From positions 1-32,950 of the forward strand of contig CASFPS010000018.1 in NCBI GenBank assembly GCA_949296355.1: a stretch of 32,950 nt of DNA, given 5' to 3'. Every line of letters starts with the position of its first letter. Position 1 is the first letter of the stretch. The notes beneath the pieces were generated by a model. It saw only the letters and a list, made by a program, of their open reading frames with translations. It made no database searches and was not told the DNA's origin. Below, piece by piece: positions 6,781 to 27,413 of this stretch. The position numbers were made by a program, and so were the translations under genes. Origin of the DNA: an uncultured bacterium (GTDB lineage: Bacteria > Cyanobacteriota > Vampirovibrionia > Gastranaerophilales > Gastranaerophilaceae).

Positions 6781-7541
6781 ATTTTAAAAAACCTTTCTGC
6801 ATTTTCTGTTGTTATGCCGGTTAATTCATCAAGCGGCATTTGCCTTATCTTTGCAATTTCTTCCGCAACAAACTTTACATAAGCCGGATAGTTTGTTTTG
6901 CCTCTATAAGGAACCGGCGTGAGATACGGCGAATCTGTTTCCAGGACTAACTTCTCCAGCGGAACTTCACGCGCAACATCTTTCATCTTAACCGCATTTT
7001 TAAAAGTTACAACTCCGCCGAGCGCAATATACCAGCCCTGCTTTACACACTCCCTCATAAATTCAACACTGCCTGAAAAACAGTGGAATAAAACATCTGA
7101 AGTTTTGTTATTCTCAAGAAGTATATCATAACTGTCTTTATGAGCGTCTCTATCGTGCACAACAACCGGCAGTTCCAGCCTGTTTGCAAGTTTGATTTGC
7201 TTTGCAAAAACCTCTTTTTGTAAATCTGCAAAAGATTTATCCCAGTAATAATCAAGCCCGATTTCTCCGACTGCCTTAACTTTTGGATTCTTTGCAAGTT
7301 CTACCATCTTATTTTCTACTTCCGTAGTATAAGAAGCGGCTTCTGACGGGTAAATTCCAATCATTGCCCAGAGATTTTCATCTCTTTGGGAAGTTTCAAT
7401 AACTTTTTCCATTAATCCTGCTTCTACAGAAGGAACAACTGCTTTTTTTACTCCGTATTCATTCATCTGCTTAATAATTTCCTCAACAGGAATTTCAAGC
7501 ATATCAATATGTGCGTGCGTATCTATCAAATAATCTTTCAT
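6777..7541 (-). CDS. tatD: TatD family metal-dependent deoxyribonuclease
   Basis: 254 residues, the usual TatD length. TIM-barrel metallohydrolase with the metal ligands in place: His9-x-His11 (DTHAHID), Glu in VGEIGLDYY, His in VVVHDRDA, His in LFHCFSGS, and Asp in LETDSPYL followed by TPVPYRGKTNYPAYV. Members have 3'-5' exonuclease activity on DNA and act in DNA turnover. It is third in the operon pfkB-like, nuclease, tatD, tlyA, 17 bases after the nuclease gene and overlapping tlyA by four bases. Confidence 0.94.
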   Translation of the reverse strand: MKDYLIDTHAHIDMLEIPVEEIIKQMNEYGVKKAVVPSVEAGLMEKVIETSQRDENLWAMIGIYPSEAASYTTEVENKMVELAKNPKVKAVGEIGLDYYWDKSFADLQKEVFAKQIKLANRLELPVVVHDRDAHKDSYDILLENNKTSDVLFHCFSGSVEFMRECVKQGWYIALGGVVTFKNAVKMKDVAREVPLEKLVLETDSPYLTPVPYRGKTNYPAYVKFVAEEIAKIRQMPLDELTGITTENAERFFKI

Positions 7542-7558
7542 AAAAAAATTATATCACG

Positions 7559-8182
7559 CTAAAAACATACGGGAGAATACTCGCAGGAGCATTCAGATTT
7601 TTTATCGGGAAGTTCACAATGGTTGATTTTGTCCGTTATGCTTAATAACCGCTCCCTGTACTCTTCGCCCAGTTCCGGAGTATAGTTTATCTTAGCTTCA
7701 TCCCTGTTTTTTAAATCAATATAGACAAAATTAACCCGCTCTGTCTTAAAAAATTCACTTACTGCCATAATATATATCATTGTCTGAAAATCGTATTTAG
7801 GATTTTTGGGGATTGCACCTGTTTTGTAATCAAGAATATAATACTCTTCTCCGTTCTTTACAAGTGCATCAATTCTTCCTCCGAAAAATGAATCCCCGAT
7901 TTTTACCGCAAGATTGTATTCAGTATTTACAACTTCGTAAGAAAAATATTTAATATTTTTCAAATACTGCCACACAGCGGATTCTTTTTCCGTAAGCGAC
8001 AATTCCATTTTATCGATAAATTCTTTTCTTAAATAATAAGAAGCAAGGGCGTGTATATTTTTACCGAACTCAAATATATCATCGTTTACCGGCATGTTAA
8101 TATTTTTAACATACCGGTAATAGAATTTTCTCGGACATTGCTGAAATGTCTTAAGCATATTCGGTGAATATAAAGAGAACAT
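7559..8182 (-). CDS. PD-(D/E)XK nuclease with Cas4/RecB-like Fe-S cysteines
   Basis: 207 residues. The nuclease core is complete: Gly40-x3-His44, Glu88, Asp105 (GGRIDAL), Asp118-x-Lys120 (ILDYKTG) and Gln133-x3-Tyr137. Cys16 (QQCPRKFYYRY) at the N-terminus and Cys198, Cys200 and Cys206 at the C-terminus match the split four-cysteine iron-sulphur arrangement of Cas4, AddB and related PDDEXK_1 proteins, although the CxC spacing is one residue tighter than usual. No CRISPR array or cas genes are nearby, so this is a stand-alone relative, probably a DNA end-processing exonuclease. The ATG follows AGGGGG by seven bases. Confidence 0.88.
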   Translation of the reverse strand: MFSLYSPNMLKTFQQCPRKFYYRYVKNINMPVNDDIFEFGKNIHALASYYLRKEFIDKMELSLTEKESAVWQYLKNIKYFSYEVVNTEYNLAVKIGDSFFGGRIDALVKNGEEYYILDYKTGAIPKNPKYDFQTMIYIMAVSEFFKTERVNFVYIDLKNRDEAKINYTPELGEEYRERLLSITDKINHCELPDKKSECSCEYSPVCF

Positions 8183-8206
8183 AATTTAACCCCCTGCATT
8201 TACCCC

Positions 8207-9250
8207 CTATCCTTCTAAATATGTATAGTCCGGGTTTTGGTTTAATTTTTCCTCTATCTGCTCAAATGTAATATGCCCTTCTGTTGCCCCGAATTGGGAA
8301 ACTACAGAGGCTGAATTTACAGATGCGTACATTAAAGAGCGACCGACATTAAGCCTTGTTCTTTCTAATGCACCGCAGAAGGTTGACGCAAAAGCATCAC
8401 CGGCACCGAGAGTTGAAACAACCGGAGAAGGGAATACCGGACAGAAATAGAATTTCTTTCCATCATAGGCATAAGCACCATTGCCGCCATCTGTTATTAC
8501 AATAACCTGATAGTCCATAACTTTAAGCGTTGTAAGCATTTTCTTAATATCAACGTGGATAAGTTCTTGAGAAAACTTTTCGGTCTTTGTATCAGGTCTC
8601 ACCTGAATATCAGTAGCCATAGTCGCTTCATCTTTGTTCATAACAACAATATGAGCCGATTTAAGAATTGTCTTTATATGCTCAAATCCTCGCTTGAGAC
8701 TTGTAGAACCGGCATTAAAACATATTTTTGTACCATGCTTATGGGCATAATCAACAATTGATTCAATAACCTTGTTGGACTCACCGTTTAACGGCGCAAC
8801 ATACATTAAGTCAGCGTTTTTTATAGCATCAAAATTAATCTCTTCCTGCTTAATTTCTGCATTTGCACCTCTATGCGCAAGAACGGTTCTGTCACCTTGA
8901 AAACTTACAAGAATTATTGAAAAACCTGTAGAAGTATTTTTATCCTGAATAATATGGGATAAATTAACTTTTCTGTCTTTAAAAGATTCTAAAATACCTT
9001 CTGAATAAATATCTTCGCCAATCTTAAAAATAGCTGAAGTTTCAAAACCTAAATTTGCAAAATTACATGCAGTATTAACTCCGCCTCCGCCGACTTTAGA
9101 AGAGAAAGTTGTAATATCAATCTTTGCACCGTACGGGTAACTCATAAACTCAGAATCTTTATTTTTAGAACATACAGATACTATATTCGCATCATCGCAC
9201 TCAACAAAAACATCCATTGTTGCGCTGCCTATCGTTAAAACCTTTGTCAT
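8207..9250 (-). CDS. PfkB/ribokinase family sugar or nucleoside kinase
   Basis: 347 residues. ATP-dependent kinase of the ribokinase fold. The N-terminal signature is GGGGVNTACNFANLG (54-68). The second PfkB signature STLGAGDAFASTFCGAL holds the catalytic Asp285 and the anion hole GAGD (282-285). NKDE near 205 and VITDGGNGAYAY are also typical. The protein is longer than ribokinase, with extra segments around 20-50 and 215-235. The substrate cannot be read from the sequence; an adenosine-kinase-like or sugar-kinase role is possible. GGAGGA six bases upstream of ATG fixes the start. It is the first gene of the four-gene minus-strand operon ending at 5971. Confidence 0.88.
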   Translation of the reverse strand: MTKVLTIGSATMDVFVECDDANIVSVCSKNKDSEFMSYPYGAKIDITTFSSKVGGGGVNTACNFANLGFETSAIFKIGEDIYSEGILESFKDRKVNLSHIIQDKNTSTGFSIILVSFQGDRTVLAHRGANAEIKQEEINFDAIKNADLMYVAPLNGESNKVIESIVDYAHKHGTKICFNAGSTSLKRGFEHIKTILKSAHIVVMNKDEATMATDIQVRPDTKTEKFSQELIHVDIKKMLTTLKVMDYQVIVITDGGNGAYAYDGKKFYFCPVFPSPVVSTLGAGDAFASTFCGALERTRLNVGRSLMYASVNSASVVSQFGATEGHITFEQIEEKLNQNPDYTYLEG

Positions 9251-17112: not shown

Positions 17113-17147
17113 AAAACCTGAATTTAAATTCAGGTTTTTTGTTTTTT
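17113..17147 (+). terminator. Terminator after the 60-residue protein gene
   Basis: Palindrome AAAACCTGAATTT/AAATTCAGGTTTT followed by TTGTTTTTT. Confidence 0.9.
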
Positions 17148-17216: not shown

Positions 17217-18974
17217 TTAGTCTTGGACTTTTTGCTTGAAAACGTGTCCTTTTCTATCCTTTTCTATATTCGGAGTATCAATCTCAAATACATAAGCATC
17301 AGCAGGAGCAAGGTTTACGCGAAGTTCGTTTTTAGATGCCTGAAATTCGCTTGTATCTCCATACTCAGGAATCATATTTTTCAATTTCTGGTCTTCTTTT
17401 AAGCCCGGAATCTCAAGAACGCCGGTTACATTCCTGTTCGGATTTTTGTTAGCAATAATCAGAAGCGTTCTGCCGTTGTTGTGTCTTGCATAAGTTATAA
17501 TCTGATCATTTTTATCTTCACGTTTATCCAGCTCAATGAAGCTGCTGTTTCTGTCTGCAAGCACGTCAAGATTTTCATTTCTCATCTTTAGAACGCCTTT
17601 CATCACACGTTCTATATCAGGATGATCTCCGCCCGGTTTTCTTGATAAATTAAACAATGCAAGACGATAACGGTGTTCGTTCATCAATGTTTTACCGGTA
17701 TATGTTTCTATATTATCCGTATCTCTGTATTTATAGTCATAGTAGTCGCCTGTCTGGAAGCCGTCAATAAAGTACGGATTACACATCGGAATTGTCGCCT
17801 GCAAGACAGTTGTAAGTTTACAGAAATTTTCACCGCCGTGTATCATAGAAGAGCTGTCGTCATGCGTCAGGAATGAGCCAATAACACTCTTTCCTGCAGG
17901 CAGTTTGTGAGACAAATCCAGGTTAAACTTAACATAATCATTAAACTCTGTAGCATTTTTCCAGTCGTGGAAAATATGATACTGCCCGTAGTATTCATCA
18001 AAACCGGCTCTTAAAAGGTCTTCCGGTCTGTCATAAGGCATATTTACCATCGGAGATGCGCATTCATATGTATAGCTTTCTGCAAGCCATGCAAATTCAG
18101 GATCTCTTTTGTGAGAATGCTTAATCAATATATCCCAGAATTCCGGCGGTTTCGCTCTTGCAACATCGGCTCTTATACCGTCTATACCAAGGTCAATACA
18201 AGCATCAACATACTGTTTATGCATTTCCAGTAATTTAGGATTCAAAGTTCTGTCAGCTTCGTCTGCCCAAGGCTCAAACATTCTGATATCAGCCCATCCT
18301 TGCGGAGTTTTATCTTCACCGTTTCTGCCGTATGCCATTAATTCAGGTTCAGCCTCAAACATATCAACCGAAGCGCAGCTCGGCAAATCCAGCATTACTC
18401 TGATTCCTCGTTTGTGACACTCGTCAATAAGGGCTTTAAACTGTTCATCAGGAGTTCTCGGATCATTTTTGTCTATAAGCATTGGATCAATTGCGAGACG
18501 TCCGTCCTCTGTAACATATTTTGCAGGTGAATAAAGAGAACCGGCGGTTCCCATTGCATTTTTCTTTCCGGTCGGATGTATTGGCAGAATATGAATAGTA
18601 TTAATACCATCTGCCTTTAATTCATCCAATCTTGAAATTGCGCTCAATAATGTTCCGTTTTTTTCACCGGTTGACAGGGTAACTTTATCATCACCGTTCA
18701 AATCCTGTGCTGTAAAGGTTCTCGGAACAATTGCCATCATAACTGACTGATTGTTTCGAACCATTGTTCTTAAATTGTTTTTGTAAGATTTGATTTCTTT
18801 TTTGTTTGCATCAACCTTTTGTACGGCAGGCGCATTAATTCTGGCAAGATTATCCAGATAACCGGAAGTTACGCCGGATTCTTTTTTAGACGGAGTTTCA
18901 GGCTTACTTACCGGAACATGCTGCTGCATTGCGGATGCTTTGAAATTAATCGGGATAATTCTACTTATTTCCAT
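17217..18974 (-). CDS. GH13 alpha-amylase-superfamily enzyme with N-terminal INFKA tag
   Basis: 585 residues. The GH13 barrel runs from about 75 to 470: NTIHILPIHPTG (region I side), GIRVMLDLPSC, GIDGIRADVARAKP with the nucleophile Asp270, WLAESYTYE with the acid/base Glu299, and FLTHDDSS with His371-Asp372 in the transition-state position. A beta-sandwich C domain follows (TLLIIANKNPNRNVTGVLEIPG...NLAPADAYVFEI). The substrate is an alpha-glucan, but hydrolysis and transfer cannot be separated from sequence. There is no signal peptide; instead residues 9-13 INFKA form the shared tag, followed by a Pro/Ser-rich linker to about residue 60. It overlaps the upstream gene by 14 bases, with AAGGTGA six bases before the ATG. 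It is last in a three-gene operon. Confidence 0.88.
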   Translation of the reverse strand: MEISRIIPINFKASAMQQHVPVSKPETPSKKESGVTSGYLDNLARINAPAVQKVDANKKEIKSYKNNLRTMVRNNQSVMMAIVPRTFTAQDLNGDDKVTLSTGEKNGTLLSAISRLDELKADGINTIHILPIHPTGKKNAMGTAGSLYSPAKYVTEDGRLAIDPMLIDKNDPRTPDEQFKALIDECHKRGIRVMLDLPSCASVDMFEAEPELMAYGRNGEDKTPQGWADIRMFEPWADEADRTLNPKLLEMHKQYVDACIDLGIDGIRADVARAKPPEFWDILIKHSHKRDPEFAWLAESYTYECASPMVNMPYDRPEDLLRAGFDEYYGQYHIFHDWKNATEFNDYVKFNLDLSHKLPAGKSVIGSFLTHDDSSSMIHGGENFCKLTTVLQATIPMCNPYFIDGFQTGDYYDYKYRDTDNIETYTGKTLMNEHRYRLALFNLSRKPGGDHPDIERVMKGVLKMRNENLDVLADRNSSFIELDKREDKNDQIITYARHNNGRTLLIIANKNPNRNVTGVLEIPGLKEDQKLKNMIPEYGDTSEFQASKNELRVNLAPADAYVFEIDTPNIEKDRKGHVFKQKVQD

Positions 18975-21519
18975 CTTCGCTCACCTTCCTGAAAATATTC
19001 TGCGGATTTCTTATTTTACCAAAGCCAAGCTGTGCGAGTATAGTTGCACCGACTACGCTGCCGCCTATTGCAGAGGCTATTCTTGCCCACTTCTGATTAC
19101 CGTATCTTCTCTCAGAAGCTTTCGTTACCATATCAAGAGTATTTTGGGCAACGAGGTTAAATTTAGACATTCTTGTCTTCTCGGATTTTGTATACTGCTC
19201 CAGAACTTTTGTATCCAAATGATGATAAGGTTTTGTAAAATCAATATCATTATTGCTCATGATATCCTGAAATCTCTTTATATATTTCTTTAATCTGCCG
19301 GAAACATCTCCCGCTGCTACATCACTATAGCCCTTCAATCCGTTTTCTGTAGCATCAGCAAGATTCTGACTCCAGGTCTTTCTCATAACATCTTTATAAA
19401 ACTCAGGATTATTAATTGTATTGAGTTTCATTGTATGTTCTGATGAAGTAGCCCCAATTATTGCATCTCTGCCGAATTTTGCTACTTCTTTTTCATAACC
19501 GCCTTCCGGAAGAGGTCGCTTATATGCATCAAATAAATGCAGAACTCTGTTAAACGAGTTTTTTGCACCTTGATATCTTTCTATAATTCTGGAAATTTCC
19601 TGATTCTTAGAAGAACCTACACCTCTTGCATTATACTTTGCAAACTCAAGACGTTCAGCAGGCGGTAAACTCCAGAAATCCTTGCCGGCATATTTATCTG
19701 TCTTTACACCGTCTAAGAGGTCAAAGAGCTCCTGTCTTGATTCAACAGAATTTGACAAAGTTGCCACATCTTCTTTTACCAGTTTATCAATTGTATTACT
19801 GAATTTGCCGATTGTATTAAGGCGTTTTGCAGTGTTATTATAGTTATTTTCTATACCGGTAATCAAATCCTTAAGATGAGATTCTGAATTTGAACGTCCG
19901 TTAAGATTAATTTCCATCTCTGACATAACTTTGCCAAGCTTATTTACTGCATCTTTATATTTAGCCTCATCCTGCACCAGAGCGTTTAATTGTCTTTCAA
20001 CAATCTCCTTTGCGTAACTTTCGGATTCTCTCATCTGCTTCAAATCTTTGTATTTAATACCAAGAACATCCAGCAAGGTATTTTCAAATCTATTATAAGA
20101 GCGTGCTATAACAGTTTCCGGCGCATACTCAACTTTAAACGACTTACATTTATCAAGAACTTTTTGATTCTGTTTAAACTCGCCTAAAACTTTTGCAAAA
20201 TCTGTTACATCCTTAATATTTTCGTTATTTACATATTTTGCACTGTTTGATTTAATATTCTTTGAAATATTTTCCAGAACATCGTTTTGATATGCTTTTA
20301 AAGCTTCTTTAGGCATGCCGGACTCATTAGCGATCTTAGAATCAAATAAATTCTTAAACTCGCCTTTTATCATAGCCAATTCTTCTTCTGTTATACCGTC
20401 AGTGTTATATTTTTTCACTATATCCGCAACCTCTGCAGATGTAGGAACAAAAATCCGCTCCATAATTGCTTTATTACGTGACGGTATATTGGTTTTTATT
20501 GTTCTTACAAGATCATCAGCAAAGTTATCATTAATAGAATATGCGCCTTTATTATCAGGGTTAAATATTTTTGCTAAATCCGCCTGAATACCTTCTGCGG
20601 CGTTAGCATCCATATCTTTTGTCAAAAGAGATAACAAATTTTCATACTCAACTTTTGGCAATTGCTTGCCTTTATAGTTTGTTAAAATACTTTCAACTTC
20701 CTTGCTTAATTTGTTTGGCTTTATGCTATCTACCTGTTCACTCATTTCAGAAGTTTTATGCAAAGCCCGTGAGATTTTTGTATTGTAGTTTTGATTTCTT
20801 GCTTTTTCCACTGCCGGTGCAACCAGTTTTTCCAAACCACAGCACATCAATGCAGCAATAACAGGAGTTGCAAAACCGGCGGTTAGCATCCAGAGGGTAT
20901 TTGTCTGGATACCGATTTTTCTCATTTGTTCTTTAATCAAATCATGGCGGTTTTTAATTCCTCTTGGAATTCCCATTCTGTCGCCGATTACATCAAGATC
21001 TTCACCCGGATAATCTCCCTGATACATATCAAACGGAATATAATTAGGGTCTTGAAGTACAGATTTTTTACGTCCCTGATCATCAATATATTCTTTCCCT
21101 ACATCAAATCCCTGAATAATTCTTGACGGCGCTTTTATGGCAATAAGAGGGAATAATGACATTGATGCGAGAAAAGCCCCGAGTCCGGCGTATTCCATAA
21201 ATCTGAGCATAGGATTCTTAGTTCTTGCGGCAAGCATTGTAGCGATTCCCAAACCGCCCATTGCAAGCCCTACGTCGTTTAGTCTGCCAAGCTGGTGGTC
21301 ATTTGCATTACCTGCAAGCCCGTCTTTAACAGCCTTAATATCATACGCTCTGTCTTTTATAAAATATTTAGGTACTGTCACAATAGAGTCGTGAACCAGA
21401 TGACCTTCCGGAACAAGAGGTTTTGTATTGCCGGAAGTCTTTACAGCCCCTTTTGCATCTTTGTAAGGTTTATGAGACTTAGTATTTTCAATATTCGGTT
21501 GTACTGGAGTTATAGCCAT
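18961..21519 (-). CDS. Large unrecognised membrane protein with long helical domain, 852 residues
   Basis: I do not recognise this family. It has three hydrophobic segments near the N-terminus (about 82-98, 110-128 and 207-227) and one near the C-terminus (about 814-834, IASAIGGSVVGATILAQLGFG). Between them lies a region of almost 600 residues rich in Lys, Asp, Glu and Asn, predicted helical or coiled-coil, with no catalytic motif visible. The N-terminus MAITPVQPNIENTK lacks the F-[TK]-[GA] tag. The start is one base after the stop of the upstream gene (TAGTATG), so translation is probably coupled. The layout suggests a membrane-anchored scaffold. Confidence 0.8.
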   Translation of the reverse strand: MAITPVQPNIENTKSHKPYKDAKGAVKTSGNTKPLVPEGHLVHDSIVTVPKYFIKDRAYDIKAVKDGLAGNANDHQLGRLNDVGLAMGGLGIATMLAARTKNPMLRFMEYAGLGAFLASMSLFPLIAIKAPSRIIQGFDVGKEYIDDQGRKKSVLQDPNYIPFDMYQGDYPGEDLDVIGDRMGIPRGIKNRHDLIKEQMRKIGIQTNTLWMLTAGFATPVIAALMCCGLEKLVAPAVEKARNQNYNTKISRALHKTSEMSEQVDSIKPNKLSKEVESILTNYKGKQLPKVEYENLLSLLTKDMDANAAEGIQADLAKIFNPDNKGAYSINDNFADDLVRTIKTNIPSRNKAIMERIFVPTSAEVADIVKKYNTDGITEEELAMIKGEFKNLFDSKIANESGMPKEALKAYQNDVLENISKNIKSNSAKYVNNENIKDVTDFAKVLGEFKQNQKVLDKCKSFKVEYAPETVIARSYNRFENTLLDVLGIKYKDLKQMRESESYAKEIVERQLNALVQDEAKYKDAVNKLGKVMSEMEINLNGRSNSESHLKDLITGIENNYNNTAKRLNTIGKFSNTIDKLVKEDVATLSNSVESRQELFDLLDGVKTDKYAGKDFWSLPPAERLEFAKYNARGVGSSKNQEISRIIERYQGAKNSFNRVLHLFDAYKRPLPEGGYEKEVAKFGRDAIIGATSSEHTMKLNTINNPEFYKDVMRKTWSQNLADATENGLKGYSDVAAGDVSGRLKKYIKRFQDIMSNNDIDFTKPYHHLDTKVLEQYTKSEKTRMSKFNLVAQNTLDMVTKASERRYGNQKWARIASAIGGSVVGATILAQLGFGKIRNPQNIFRKVSEDGNK

Positions 21520-21520
21520 A

Positions 21521-22597
21521 CTAAATCACCGTACTTTCTTTGGACTTATCCATAATATCTTTGTTTGCCAATTTTCCCATATGTTTTGCTTTATATATTA
21601 CATTTGCCGTTGTACCGACAGTTAATGCTGCTGTAAACAACATCCAGGCTTTTCCGGCATGTTTCATAAAGCCTGATTTACCCGGATCTCCTGTCCACAG
21701 AGTCTTAAACGATTTTCCGAAGGATTTAAGGAATGTCTTTGAAATTTCATAAGTATTTATTCCAAAATTCTTCATTCTTGATGCCATCTTTGTGCCAAAA
21801 CCTTCACCCGGTTTCGCAATATGGCGCCTTCTGTTTGATATTGACGTAAAGAAATCTTCCCACGAGTCCTGAGCTGCCAGCCCGACTCCTAAACCTGCCC
21901 AGGCGTAAGATGAGAGACTTTTTGCAGTCTTGGTTGTTGAAATTATATTCTGAATTATAGGGGTTGTTTCTGTTACGGAATCATTCAAATCCTCGCCCAG
22001 TCCGAGTTTCTTGGCAATATTATCATAATAAGGTACGCCTATATCTTTTTGAATAAGATCTTTTCTAAAGAACTCTCTTGAGTCATACACTTTTCTCTGC
22101 TGAACCTGCGGAATAATTCTTGCAGCCTCGCCCGATTCTTTAGGCAGAGGGTAGTAAACGTGTTCTATAGGAAGTTCTATATCAACTCCGGTTCCCCAGT
22201 ATACAGGACGTGTAACTAAATCCGGAGATAATGTTTTCATAAGTCCGTATAAAACTACGCCCAGTGCCATCTTTTTACCGTTAATACCGGCTGCTACACG
22301 TGATTTAGGTGTCAGATGTTTATTTACAAGATTAAATAACCCCATAAACATGCCGCTTCCGACAAGATAAGGAATTATTCCCATTGATAAAAATTCATAA
22401 AAATCTGAGTTTACATCTCCTTGTAAACCCTTTATCGGATACTGGAGAAATGCGTTTGATGTTTTCTGGTATTTTTGACGAAGCCTTGTTTTTAGCGTAT
22501 TGGGAAGAATACGGGACTCCATCTCACCCTTTTCTTCTTTTTCGGGCTTAGCTTTAAACATCACATTTTTATCTGCTGAACTGATTGCTTTAATCAT
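21521..22597 (-). CDS. Unrecognised multi-pass membrane protein with N-terminal VMFKA tag, 358 residues
   Basis: No known family recognised. Residues 12-16 (VMFKA) match the shared short tag. Hydrophobic stretches are at about 70-92, 108-122, 229-242 and 318-337, separated by polar loops. The loop after the second segment (RPVYWGTGVDIELPIEHVYYPLP...YDSREFFRKDLIQKD) is loosely like the corresponding loop of the 852-residue neighbour, so the two could be distant relatives; this is only an impression. It is first in the operon, preceded 34 bases upstream by the palindrome ending in CAGG. The ribosome site is weak (GGGG five bases before ATG). Confidence 0.78.
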   Translation of the reverse strand: MIKAISSADKNVMFKAKPEKEEKGEMESRILPNTLKTRLRQKYQKTSNAFLQYPIKGLQGDVNSDFYEFLSMGIIPYLVGSGMFMGLFNLVNKHLTPKSRVAAGINGKKMALGVVLYGLMKTLSPDLVTRPVYWGTGVDIELPIEHVYYPLPKESGEAARIIPQVQQRKVYDSREFFRKDLIQKDIGVPYYDNIAKKLGLGEDLNDSVTETTPIIQNIISTTKTAKSLSSYAWAGLGVGLAAQDSWEDFFTSISNRRRHIAKPGEGFGTKMASRMKNFGINTYEISKTFLKSFGKSFKTLWTGDPGKSGFMKHAGKAWMLFTAALTVGTTANVIYKAKHMGKLANKDIMDKSKESTVI

Positions 22598-22651: not shown

Positions 22652-22746
22652 TATTTATAAAGCATGAACTTTACATTTATTTACAATGTTTTAGATAATA
22701 TAAAACACACATAATTAACTTATCAAAAACATAAAAATAATACAAG

Positions 22747-22773
22747 AAAAAAGGACTGTATAAGTCCTTTTTT
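22747..22773. terminator. Terminator downstream of ferritin
   Basis: Stem AAAAAAGGACT / AGTCCTTTTTT around GTATA, with A and T runs on both sides. It lies directly after the ferritin stop on the minus strand. Confidence 0.9.
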
Positions 22774-22775
22774 CT

Positions 22776-23264
22776 CTATTGACGTTCTCCTAATTCTTTA
22801 TCCATAAGGTAAAGAGAGACTTTATCATCTCCGAAAAGCTCCAGGCGCTTAATTATGTCTTTAACATTTTGCTCTTCTTCAATCTGTTCATTAATAAACC
22901 AGTCGATAAAAGAAAGCGTTGTTCTGTCGCACTCTTCTTCAGCTTGCTTTGCAACCTTCATAACCGATTCCGTGATACATTTTTCGTGTTCATATATTTT
23001 ATTAAAGACTGAAATTATCCCGTGAAATTCAAACTCCGGCGTTCTGATTTGTTTAAGAGTAACAAAACTGTTTCTTGAAATCAGATAGTCAAAAAGTTTC
23101 AGACCGTGTTCAACCTCTTCTTTTGCCTGATGTTTTAACCATGATGAGAAGCCGAAAAGTCCGAGTTCCTTCATATAAGCCGACATTGAAAGATAAAGGT
23201 AGCCTGAATAAAATTCCTTATTAATCTGCTCATTTATAATTTCATTAATTTTATCGCTAATCAT
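22776..23264 (-). CDS. ftnA: Bacterial non-haem ferritin
   Basis: 162 residues. Iron-storage subunit that oxidises Fe(II) and stores Fe(III) in a 24-mer shell in the cytoplasm. The four-helix bundle and ferroxidase residues are clear: Glu17 (NKEFYSGYLYLSMS), Glu50 and His53 (AKEEVEHGLKLFDY), and the later EEECDRTTLSFIDWFINEQIEEEQ. The start at 23264 is preceded by GGGGAGA about eight bases upstream; the longer in-frame extension would run into the preceding gene. It overlaps the superoxide reductase gene by eight bases, so the two are co-expressed. Confidence 0.95.
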   Translation of the reverse strand: MISDKINEIINEQINKEFYSGYLYLSMSAYMKELGLFGFSSWLKHQAKEEVEHGLKLFDYLISRNSFVTLKQIRTPEFEFHGIISVFNKIYEHEKCITESVMKVAKQAEEECDRTTLSFIDWFINEQIEEEQNVKDIIKRLELFGDDKVSLYLMDKELGERQ

Positions 23265-24497: not shown

Positions 24498-25513
24498 TGA
24501 TTTTATCGGGAATGAGTCTTGAAGAGCTTGAAAATTTGATGTCAGAACTTGGCGCCACAAAATTCAGGGCAAAGCAAATTCATAACTGGATTTATACAAA
24601 ATCCGTATCTACTATTGATGAAATGACAAATTTATCCAAAGATTTCCGCGAGCAGTTGAAAGGAATTGCTTCTGTAACAGAGACTAAAATTAAAGTTAAA
24701 CAGACCAGTAAAGACGGAACGTTAAAATATTTAGTTGAATATCCGGACGGAGAATGTGTTGAAACAGTTCTTATGAGATTTGATAACAGGGCAAACCTTA
24801 CGGCATGTGTAAGTTCTCAGGTCGGATGCGCGGTCAATTGTTCATTTTGCGCTACCGGTAAAGGCGGGTTTAAAAGAAATCTTGACTACAAAGAAATTAT
24901 AGAACAGGTTTTGACTATTCAAAGAGACACGGGGTTAAAAGTAACAAACATTGTATTTATGGGGCAGGGCGAGCCGCTTTTGAATCTTGATAATGTTTTA
25001 AAAGCCTTAGAGATTTTTAACAATGATTTTCAAATCGGGGCAAGAAGAATTACAATTTCTACAAGCGGAATAATTCCGGGGATAAACAGGCTTGCGGAGA
25101 TGGATTTGCAGTCTACCCTTGCAATATCGCTTCATGCGCCTAATCACAAGCTGCGTTCTGAAATTATGCCGATAGAGAACAGATACCCGCTTGATGAACT
25201 AAAAAAAGCGCTTTTAAATTATGTTGAGAAAACCGGAAGAAGAATTACTATAGAATATATTCTTATCCACAAATTCAATGACACATTTGAAGTCGCAAAA
25301 GAGCTTGCACACTGGCTTAAAGACTTAAAATGCAATATAAATCTTATCCCTTACAACTCCGTAATTGAAAATGATTACAAAAAACCGTCAAGCAGTGATA
25401 TTATGAAGTTTAAATATCTGCTTGAACACTCCGGCAAAAAAGTTACCATAAGATTGGAGCGCGGGGCAGATATCGATGCTGCCTGCGGACAGCTTCGGGG
25501 AAAGCAAAACTAA
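24497..25513 (+). CDS. rlmN: 23S rRNA (adenine2503-C2)-methyltransferase, radical SAM
   Basis: 338 residues. Methylates A2503 of 23S rRNA (and A37 of some tRNAs). The radical-SAM cluster is Cys111-x3-Cys115-x2-Cys118 (GCAVNCSFCATG). The methyl-carrying cysteine is Cys330 near the C-terminus (DIDAACGQLRG). MGQGEPLLN, STSGIIPGI and ISLHAPN are diagnostic. The N-terminal RNA-binding domain starts FRAKQIHNWIY. AAGGAG lies 11 bases before the ATG that overlaps the upstream stop; Met6 (24512) is an alternative start. Confidence 0.96.
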   Translation: MILSGMSLEELENLMSELGATKFRAKQIHNWIYTKSVSTIDEMTNLSKDFREQLKGIASVTETKIKVKQTSKDGTLKYLVEYPDGECVETVLMRFDNRANLTACVSSQVGCAVNCSFCATGKGGFKRNLDYKEIIEQVLTIQRDTGLKVTNIVFMGQGEPLLNLDNVLKALEIFNNDFQIGARRITISTSGIIPGINRLAEMDLQSTLAISLHAPNHKLRSEIMPIENRYPLDELKKALLNYVEKTGRRITIEYILIHKFNDTFEVAKELAHWLKDLKCNINLIPYNSVIENDYKKPSSSDIMKFKYLLEHSGKKVTIRLERGADIDAACGQLRGKQN

Positions 25514-25523
25514 GGGAGATAGT

Positions 25524-27413
25524 GTGAATTTACTAGAAAAAAATTTAACAGCACTTACTAATAAGGACAGAGAGCTTGCAGAGAGGATTGCAAAGCACAT
25601 TGTCAGTGATGTCCCGCAGCTTGTAAATGAAAACGGATTTTATAATCTTGTTTATAAAAATACTTATCTGCACAACAGGCAAAATCCGCTCAGTGAAGCA
25701 AAAGAGATTTTCTCAATGGCAGCAAACAGTCCTGTTGCAATACATCTTGTTTATGGTCTCGGTTTAGGCTACCTTTTTCAAGTCGCCTCTGCAAATTCAG
25801 CAGGAACCGTTATTTTGTATGAACCGGATTTGAATATTCTGAGAATCGTATTTTCTCTTGTGGATTTTTCTAATGATATTTTAAAAAACAATGTGTTTAT
25901 ATCAGATAGTCTTGAAAAAACAGGGGAGTATATTTATAAGAAATCCAATACGAAAAACACTCCGCTTATGCTTACAACTCCTGCATACCGGGATATGAAT
26001 ACACAAAAATTTAATGAAATGGTAGAAACACTGCAAAGAATGGTCGGTAGGTATAATCTTGATTTAAAATACACGCAGCAGAAGTTTTTCCCGATTGCCA
26101 GAACCATTATCCAAAATATTCCAAACCTCATAAAAGAACCGCCTTTAAGTTCAATTAAGGATTTTTATAAAGGACAAACTGCTGTTGTTGTATCAGCAGG
26201 ACCTACATTGGACAGAAATATTGAAACAATAAAAAAATACAGGGATAATATTGTCCTGATTGTTGTGGGAACCTCAATGAAAACCATTGCAAAACACGGA
26301 ATAACGCCTGATTTTCTTTGTATAATTGAAACTTATGACTCTTCAAAACAAATAGAAGGACTTGACTTATCAGAGGTTAATTTTATAACAGAGCCTTTTT
26401 CAAATATAAATTTACGAAAATTCAAGTTCAAGCAGATATATTCACATATATCGGACAATATGCCGGTAAATTCATTCTGGAGTAATATAATAAACGAAAA
26501 TACGGAAGAGTATTTATCTAAAGGAACTGTATCTTATACAGCGCTGAATGTCGCAAGAATTCTCGGCTGCTCAAAAATTGTTATGGTAGGGCAGGATCTT
26601 GCATACATTGAAGGTCAATGCTACAGCAAAGATTCTGCATACAAAGACCTGGAATGCCGTTTCAATAAAGAAAATAACCGCTGGGAAATTACAGCAAAAG
26701 ATTTTGACAGTTTTGCAGATTCCCTGAGCAATTATCCTGAACGGGAAAAACGACTTGAGGCAGCAAGAACAAGACTCAAAAATCTCAACAATTCGCTTTA
26801 TTATGTAAAAAGCATAAAAGGCGGACAAATTCCTACAGAGTCGGTTTATGCCGCATTTATAAAACCTCTGAGTGAATTTGCACAAAGATTTAATGACAGA
26901 GAATTCATAAATACCTCGCTTGAAGGCGCGCAAATTGACGGATACAAAAATATGCCGCTTGAAGAAGCGCTAAAAGATACAAAACCAATTTCAAACAGGA
27001 ATATCATATCTGATTACAAGTTTGATATTGCTGATATAAAAAACAAATTAAAACAGGAAACCGTTAGACTTAAAAATATTCTGGAAGAAGTCAATAACGG
27101 GCAAAAGTCTGTCAAAAACTTAAACAATGACTTTAAGAGGTACAAAAATGCAACAGTTGAGGTCTTAAAAGATTTAAAAAAAGTTTCCGGAATATTTTTG
27201 AAACTAAGCACCGCTTACACAAATACCCTGTTTGATTTTATAACTGCAAAAGACAGAATCGAATTGGACTATGCAATGAAGATGTCAAAAAGTTTTGAAC
27301 CGGAGAATCTTGAGACCTTAATCACTAAATTTGCAGCCTATTTTGATAATGCGGAAATTGTAATTAATTCGATTAATGCAAGAATCAACAAGGCAATCGG
27401 AGAGATTGAATGA
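25524..27413 (+). CDS. Motility accessory factor (Maf/DUF115), probable flagellin glycosylation protein
   Basis: 629 residues from a GTG start (25524) with AAGGGAG five bases upstream. The central DUF115 domain is marked by TAVVVSAGPTLDRNIETI and by IVLIVVGTSMKTIAKHGITPDFLCIIE and TALNVARILGCSKIVMVGQDLAY, a sugar-nucleotide-binding sialyltransferase-like fold. The N-terminal part (PVAIHLVYGLGLGYLF, TVILYEPDLNIL) is the Maf N domain, and the C-terminal third is helical. Known relatives transfer pseudaminic- or legionaminic-type sugars onto flagellin. The flagellin gene at 9921 is the likely target. It lies between rlmN and dtd. Confidence 0.87.
   Translation: MNLLEKNLTALTNKDRELAERIAKHIVSDVPQLVNENGFYNLVYKNTYLHNRQNPLSEAKEIFSMAANSPVAIHLVYGLGLGYLFQVASANSAGTVILYEPDLNILRIVFSLVDFSNDILKNNVFISDSLEKTGEYIYKKSNTKNTPLMLTTPAYRDMNTQKFNEMVETLQRMVGRYNLDLKYTQQKFFPIARTIIQNIPNLIKEPPLSSIKDFYKGQTAVVVSAGPTLDRNIETIKKYRDNIVLIVVGTSMKTIAKHGITPDFLCIIETYDSSKQIEGLDLSEVNFITEPFSNINLRKFKFKQIYSHISDNMPVNSFWSNIINENTEEYLSKGTVSYTALNVARILGCSKIVMVGQDLAYIEGQCYSKDSAYKDLECRFNKENNRWEITAKDFDSFADSLSNYPEREKRLEAARTRLKNLNNSLYYVKSIKGGQIPTESVYAAFIKPLSEFAQRFNDREFINTSLEGAQIDGYKNMPLEEALKDTKPISNRNIISDYKFDIADIKNKLKQETVRLKNILEEVNNGQKSVKNLNNDFKRYKNATVEVLKDLKKVSGIFLKLSTAYTNTLFDFITAKDRIELDYAMKMSKSFEPENLETLITKFAAYFDNAEIVINSINARINKAIGEIE

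Follow-up and report, generated by a model that had tools for sequence, protein, structure and literature searches.

Among described proteins, the one nearest by sequence to the GH13-type enzyme studied here is the maltosyltransferase of Thermotoga maritima (1gju, E = 7.6e-21). The other best profile matches are two alpha-amylases and GlgE. The alignment with 1gju has partial coverage (profile positions 77-298, with a weak C-terminal part), and the canonical Asn-His of region I is absent in both enzymes, which have PRT (1gju) and PSC (ours) in this region. Neither a tag nor membrane partners are known for the protein of T. maritima. GlgE matches with profile E-values of about 1e-11 to 1e-12, and its D...KPxxFW and LAE stretches align with ours. 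It has about 660-700 residues, against 585 in our enzyme, which lacks the N-terminal domain of GlgE (no such Pfam match up to E 1; residues 1-65 are tag and linker) and reaches only 12.6 bits with the profile of its C-domain (PF21702), for a cut-off of 27.

The locus described here comes from Gastranaerophilales, an order of non-photosynthetic Cyanobacteria that is common in animal guts and that has, to our knowledge, been the object of little experimental study. The window, i.e., the whole stretch of 32,950 nucleotides that was analysed, is contig C18 of a genome of 2.09 Mb that is 99% complete. It contains an operon with the genes of two membrane proteins, P358 and P852, and of the GH13 enzyme, in this order and all on the minus strand (Table 1). 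From sequence comparisons and structure predictions, we propose that the three genes may encode a membrane platform, specific to the order, that would hold a cytoplasmic, maltosyltransferase-like alpha-glucan enzyme. We give this reading a probability of roughly 45%.

Table 1. Coordinates of the features of the operon and of its borders in the window.
Feature	Position	Strand	Basis
P358, first gene: 358-aa multi-pass membrane protein	21521-22597	-	ORF
P358 N-terminal tag, MIKAISSADKNVMFKA; F14 conserved in at least 90% of 43 homologues	22550-22597	-	alignment
P852, second gene: 852-aa membrane protein with helical arm	18961-21519	-	ORF
Membrane module of P852 that resembles P358 (residues about 34-250) and is homologous to its residues 24-251	20770-21420	-	hhalign
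Helical arm of P852, residues about 251-800	19120-20769	-	AlphaFold2, mostly high confidence
C-terminal hydrophobic segment of P852, residues 815-833	19021-19077	-	hydrophobicity
GH13, third gene: 585-aa GH13-type enzyme, no signal peptide	17217-18974	-	ORF and profile matches
GH13 N-terminal tag, MEISRIIPINFKA	18936-18974	-	motif in homologues
Conserved linker element of GH13, residues 38-51, GYLDNLARINAPAV	18822-18863	-	alignment
D270 codon, catalytic nucleophile (RAD motif)	18165-18167	-	48/48
E299 codon, acid/base	18078-18080	-	48/48
D372 codon, transition-state stabiliser (HD motif)	17859-17861	-	48/48
Promoter-like site TTGATA-18-TATATT, upstream of P358	22697-22726	-	consensus scan only
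Terminator-like hairpin 3' of ferritin gene, upstream border of unit	22744-22776	-	consensus match only
Hairpin between GH13 and convergent MFS gene	17113-17138	.	consensus match only

The three genes are kept or lost as a whole

The original prediction regarded the three genes as one unit because of their spacing. In the window, P358 and P852 are separated by 1 base, and P852 and GH13 overlap by 14. These spacings recur among the close loci: the gap of 1 base is found in 39 out of 44, and an overlap of 14 or 17 bases in 42 out of 44. We identified GH13 homologues in 77 distinct loci, and the order P358-P852-GH13 is fixed in the 67 loci (67/67) in which all three genes are complete. The prediction of a single unit was thus borne out by spacing, by gene order across related genomes, and by an inheritance of three genes or none (see below). 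The flanks are variable, with the ferritin and MFS genes present at only part of the loci. Upstream, the ferritin gene is set apart from the trio by a terminator-like hairpin and a promoter-like site, the latter coming from a consensus scan that found 32 sites in the region against 24 expected. Downstream, the hairpin facing the MFS gene is possibly a two-way terminator, with a good T-run on the plus strand only. Elsewhere in the window, positions 25476-27413 encode a 645-aa MptE-like protein with a weak N-terminal match to Maf-type glycosyltransferases.

The three genes were found in the same 108 out of 244 genomes sampled in the phylum. Every one of these is from Gastranaerophilales, and they include all genomes of the order in the sample (108/108). 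The trio genes occur in none of the remaining 136 genomes, five of which are from the same class. Among 16 further genomes, the complete trio is present in nine and all three genes are absent from seven. We found no genome, in either set, with only one or two of the genes. In summary, genomes keep or lose the trio in one piece, and nearly all gut Gastranaerophilales have it. Two genera (g3 and g11) include one genome with the trio and another without (pairs G035/G050 and G053/G045, of which G050 and G045 lack it). The six genomes of the order that lack the trio are 88-99% complete and, since the genes are adjacent, one lost contig or assembly gap would drop all three. Some absences may thus be assembly gaps; we take most of them to be real, even if not all are proven. 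Four public metagenome-assembled contigs titled uncultured Acinetobacter or Brachyspira (L059, L077, L096, L108) hold this Gastranaerophilales operon, and these titles are probably mislabelled.

These patterns bear on the possibility that the genes are merely co-transcribed, with the membrane pair and the enzyme having separate jobs. This would be compatible with the fact that the interaction between P358/P852 and GH13 is one that we infer. Yet, the order of the genes, their contact, and the three-or-none pattern hold for P852 proteins that diverged across the order down to about 25% identity, while the flanking genes change. We therefore regard separate jobs as very unlikely and are highly confident that the three genes make a single functional unit.

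P358 and P852 are homologous membrane proteins without known family

P358 has four hydrophobic peaks (residues 69-87, 110-128, 224-242, and 317-335). In P852, the first 235 residues have three peaks (about 80-98, 104-135, and 211-229), and a further one lies near the end (815-833). The models of AlphaFold2, with mean pLDDT of 76 for P358 and 82.8 for P852, indicate that the long middle of the latter is mostly helical. The hydrophobic peaks and the model, with an arm of about 550 residues, agree with the initial description of P852 as a protein with terminal membrane segments around a long helical middle.

We searched for known relatives of these proteins using profile methods and structure prediction, as had been suggested with the original prediction. 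The searches found no Pfam family over the cut-off, either for each protein or for its homologues (43 and 42), none over the cut-off in NCBIfam, and no match in PHROGs or PADLOC. Comparisons with PDB sequences gave no meaningful E-value. Fold searches with models of the whole proteins, against PDB and viral structures, gave nothing clear: Foldseek had no match at E <= 0.001, and the best Z scores of VIA-align (6.7 and 7.5) are values that common helical arrangements also reach. P852 has a few weak Pfam matches (Rab5-bind, Death, prefoldin), which are found in one or two members only and were discarded as coiled-coil noise. The two proteins are therefore, as first described, without match over the cut-off among known families, and they have no clear match among known folds.

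They do match each other. The alignment of their profiles with hhalign gave an E-value of 7e-4 with 43 and 42 sequences. When divergent members were added, residues 24-251 of P358 aligned with residues 34-238 of P852 with an E-value of 7.8e-7 and a probability of 92. Controls using reversed profiles, the helical arm, or GH13 gave E-values between 0.05 and 0.7. The C-terminal parts of the two proteins are weakly alike (E = 0.001). Profile-profile comparison thus shows that P358 and P852 are homologous. P852 is best seen as a P358-like protein into which a helical arm of about 550 residues is inserted, ahead of the final membrane segment. Homology between P358 and the module of P852 is expected of paired subunits and was counted in favour of the platform, as it is consistent with a membrane scaffold. 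The ambiguous topology of P358, caused by basic residues on several loops, was counted against it. On balance, the odds slightly favour a complex of P358 with P852.

The enzyme is GH13-type with an atypical region I

The third protein matches the alpha-amylase profile PF00128 with 26.8 bits (cut-off 22) and also matches solved GH13 chains in profile searches, which places it in the GH13 family. Its match in PADLOC to a model named GlgB was set aside as generic GH13 similarity. The prediction that the enzyme has all catalytic residues was right concerning the triad (D270, E299, and D372), which is invariant in 48 out of 48 homologues; the same is true of R268, H371, K275, and C200. It did not hold for region I, which is invariably D196-L-P-S199-C200 in place of the canonical Asn-His, in an alignment where the pairing of residues hinges on one gap. 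The Asn-His of region I is typical of amylases, but membership in GH13 does not require it. The atypical region I, as in two maltosyltransferases, leans towards the enzyme being a transferase. With its intact triad the enzyme looks catalytically competent, and activity on alpha-glucans is probable. In the genus g30 (L153-L155 and L158-L161), the operon GH13 is longer, about 680-756 aa, with tags of the NFKASLL type and extra sequence.

What would be the substrate of such an enzyme? Glycogen storage was proposed for Gastranaerophilales from genome analyses (PMC5877343), and the genome of the window encodes GlgA, with a match over the curated cut-off. One could thus imagine that the trio is part of the pathway of storage glycogen and brings GH13 to glycogen granules, in line with the glycan body initially evoked as one of the sites where the enzyme might be held. 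However, GlgA was identified in 16 out of 21 genomes searched and is not in step with the trio: it is present in all six genomes of the order that lack the trio (G034, G040, G042, G045, G050, and G051), whereas the search did not find it in G039 and G044, both of which are 99% complete and encode the operon GH13. Furthermore, none of the 21 genomes gave a match for GlgB of the TIGR01515 type, in a search confined to that type of branching enzyme. Since GlgA does not track the trio, these data leave glycogen unsupported as a substrate; the glycogen body is likewise not supported, and we give little credit to a role of the trio in this pathway.

A tag and a linker take the place of the export signal

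The enzyme of the operon had been predicted to be non-secreted, with a tag and a linker instead of a signal peptide. Indeed, signal peptides are absent from all operon GH13 enzymes that we analysed (0/73, maximal hydropathy over 12 residues of 1.43). In contrast, contig C7 of the window's genome (hereafter G000) encodes, outside the operon, a paralogue of about 507 aa that has a signal peptide and whose catalytic domain is about 40% identical to that of the operon enzyme. We analysed the N-termini of this paralogue in 20 further genomes and found 18 clear Sec-type signal peptides (12-residue hydropathy of 2.0-3.1), one borderline, and one truncated. A second GH13 match is present in all but one of the genomes of the window's family (f1) in the phylum sample, and the full-length second copy is found only in this family among the genomes sampled. 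Since the paralogue has a Sec signal that the operon enzyme lacks, the tag and the linker of the latter occupy the position of the export signal. This contrast, which upholds the prediction, shows at the level of N-terminal sequences that the operon GH13 stays out of the Sec pathway.

The existence of an exported paralogue in the same genomes makes alpha-glucan work outside the cytoplasm plausible. P358 and P852 might then be an exporter of an extracellular alpha-glucan or glycolipid, or a platform on which it is assembled, and GH13 would trim or load the chain at the membrane. The fixed association of multi-pass membrane proteins with an alpha-glucan enzyme would also fit this scenario, which we nevertheless find unlikely given that family searches with P358 and P852 identified neither an ATPase domain nor that of a known transporter.

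The tag itself follows the motif [IV]...F[KRG][AGS]. It is found within residues 2-40 of 51 out of 93 GH13 homologues, against 3.3 expected from shuffles, bearing in mind that these homologues are related and thus not independent. None of the 91 P852 proteins has it. We scanned about 0.83 Mb of G000, with 685 predicted proteins of which 444 have a hydrophilic N-terminus. The stretches of this genome in which the tag class was recorded are L109-L128, L133-L152, and L274-L276, together with the two tags of the window (Table 1). An acid-free version of the tag (early I/V, F-[KRG]-[AGS], no acidic residue) matched 14 N-termini against 2 expected, and none of 300 shuffles reached 14, a comparison that is descriptive because the pattern was shaped on the same data; about one of the 14 is a false match, such as an aspartokinase. 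GH13 and P358 fall outside this acid-free pattern because each has an acidic residue. A loose pattern (xF[KRG][AGSN]) is not above shuffles when all N-termini are considered (35 against 31.1). The tag class is genome-wide and represents about 2-3% of the sampled proteins of G000, and the tag is rare and not above shuffles in the other genomes sampled (two cases in G039, one in G068).

The tagged proteins have varied functions. They include an M16 peptidase, a phosphatase of the dual-specificity type, a helix-turn-helix repeat protein, and an NAD-epimerase, and many have no match at all. The repeat protein has 488 aa (L120:15257-16723), along which many helix-turn-helix families match. The epimerase provides a case that does not depend on the pattern: it starts with MKINRINYPNQNTGFKGLFDPN-ILITGG, and its relative in G003 with MIVNKASSSNTTFKGIFDAN-LLVTGS, whereas other homologues start with MILITGG. 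Its gene is followed by the frame of a GlgA-like glycosyltransferase (G000:C7:27482-30508, i.e., L146 from 7482-8534 on), with close relatives found in G019 and G003 only. We excluded that the tag is a signal private to the trio: a 5'-nucleotidase is clearly tagged in G045, which lacks the trio, and unrelated proteins are tagged too. As the tag is not confined to the trio, and as the strict motif is limited to part of the GH13 homologues (the above 51), the tag alone cannot be a specific dock.

Could the tag be an export signal of another route, perhaps a type III-like gate? In that case, both GH13 and P358 would be exported proteins, and P358 and P852 could be partners that insert into membranes outside the cell that makes them. 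The N-termini with the tag have no hydrophobic core, are rich in N, I, S, K, and Q, and may resemble type III signals, and the tagged set includes enzyme types that are often exported (M16 peptidase, 5'-nucleotidase). Export gates of the FHIPEP family are present in 26 out of 27 genomes searched, and most genomes of the order have three. G000 has two full-length FHIPEP proteins (L275:8646-10739 and L274:11844-13934), one gate neighbouring flagellar-type FlhB/FliR-like genes and the other a FliH-like gene; a third protein (L276:10614-12086) is soluble and consists of the C-terminal domain only. A tagged 365-aa protein of no known family (MYSINLISSINNSYYPNFKQ..., NFKQ) is encoded about 1 kb from the second gate (L274:14912-16009). 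On the other hand, these gates have no known substrate, genomes lacking the trio have them too, and the NAD-epimerase and the helix-turn-helix protein are also tagged. A search of the literature for type III systems or N-terminal motifs in Gastranaerophilales returned nothing on point. We thus deem export by such a route quite unlikely.

A putative membrane platform for an alpha-glucan enzyme

Under the platform reading, P358 and P852 would be homologous subunits of a mixed membrane complex, to which P852 would add the helical arm. GH13 would be held at the cytoplasmic face of this platform by its N-terminal tag and the conserved linker element. There it would transfer or trim malto-oligosaccharide units on a membrane-proximal alpha-glucan or glycoconjugate. 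The tethering of the enzyme to the membrane pair is a tentative proposal, to which we give a little less than even odds. A broader possibility, which seems to us rather doubtful, is that P358 and P852 are the central parts of an undescribed kind of membrane machine, ancestral and nearly universal in gut Gastranaerophilales, with GH13 as its catalytic part, and that a few per cent of the proteins are sorted by the F-[KRG]-[AGS] tag.

All sampled genomes of the main family have the trio and, outside the group, the phylum sample has none, which makes it a good marker of what sets the cell envelope or carbon handling of these bacteria apart. The association of sister membrane proteins with an alpha-glucan enzyme that has a Sec-type twin provides a possible case of one enzyme being sent to two destinations by different N-termini. 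Finally, the tag carried by about 2-3% of the sampled proteins may be a sorting signal, perhaps one that has not been described before.
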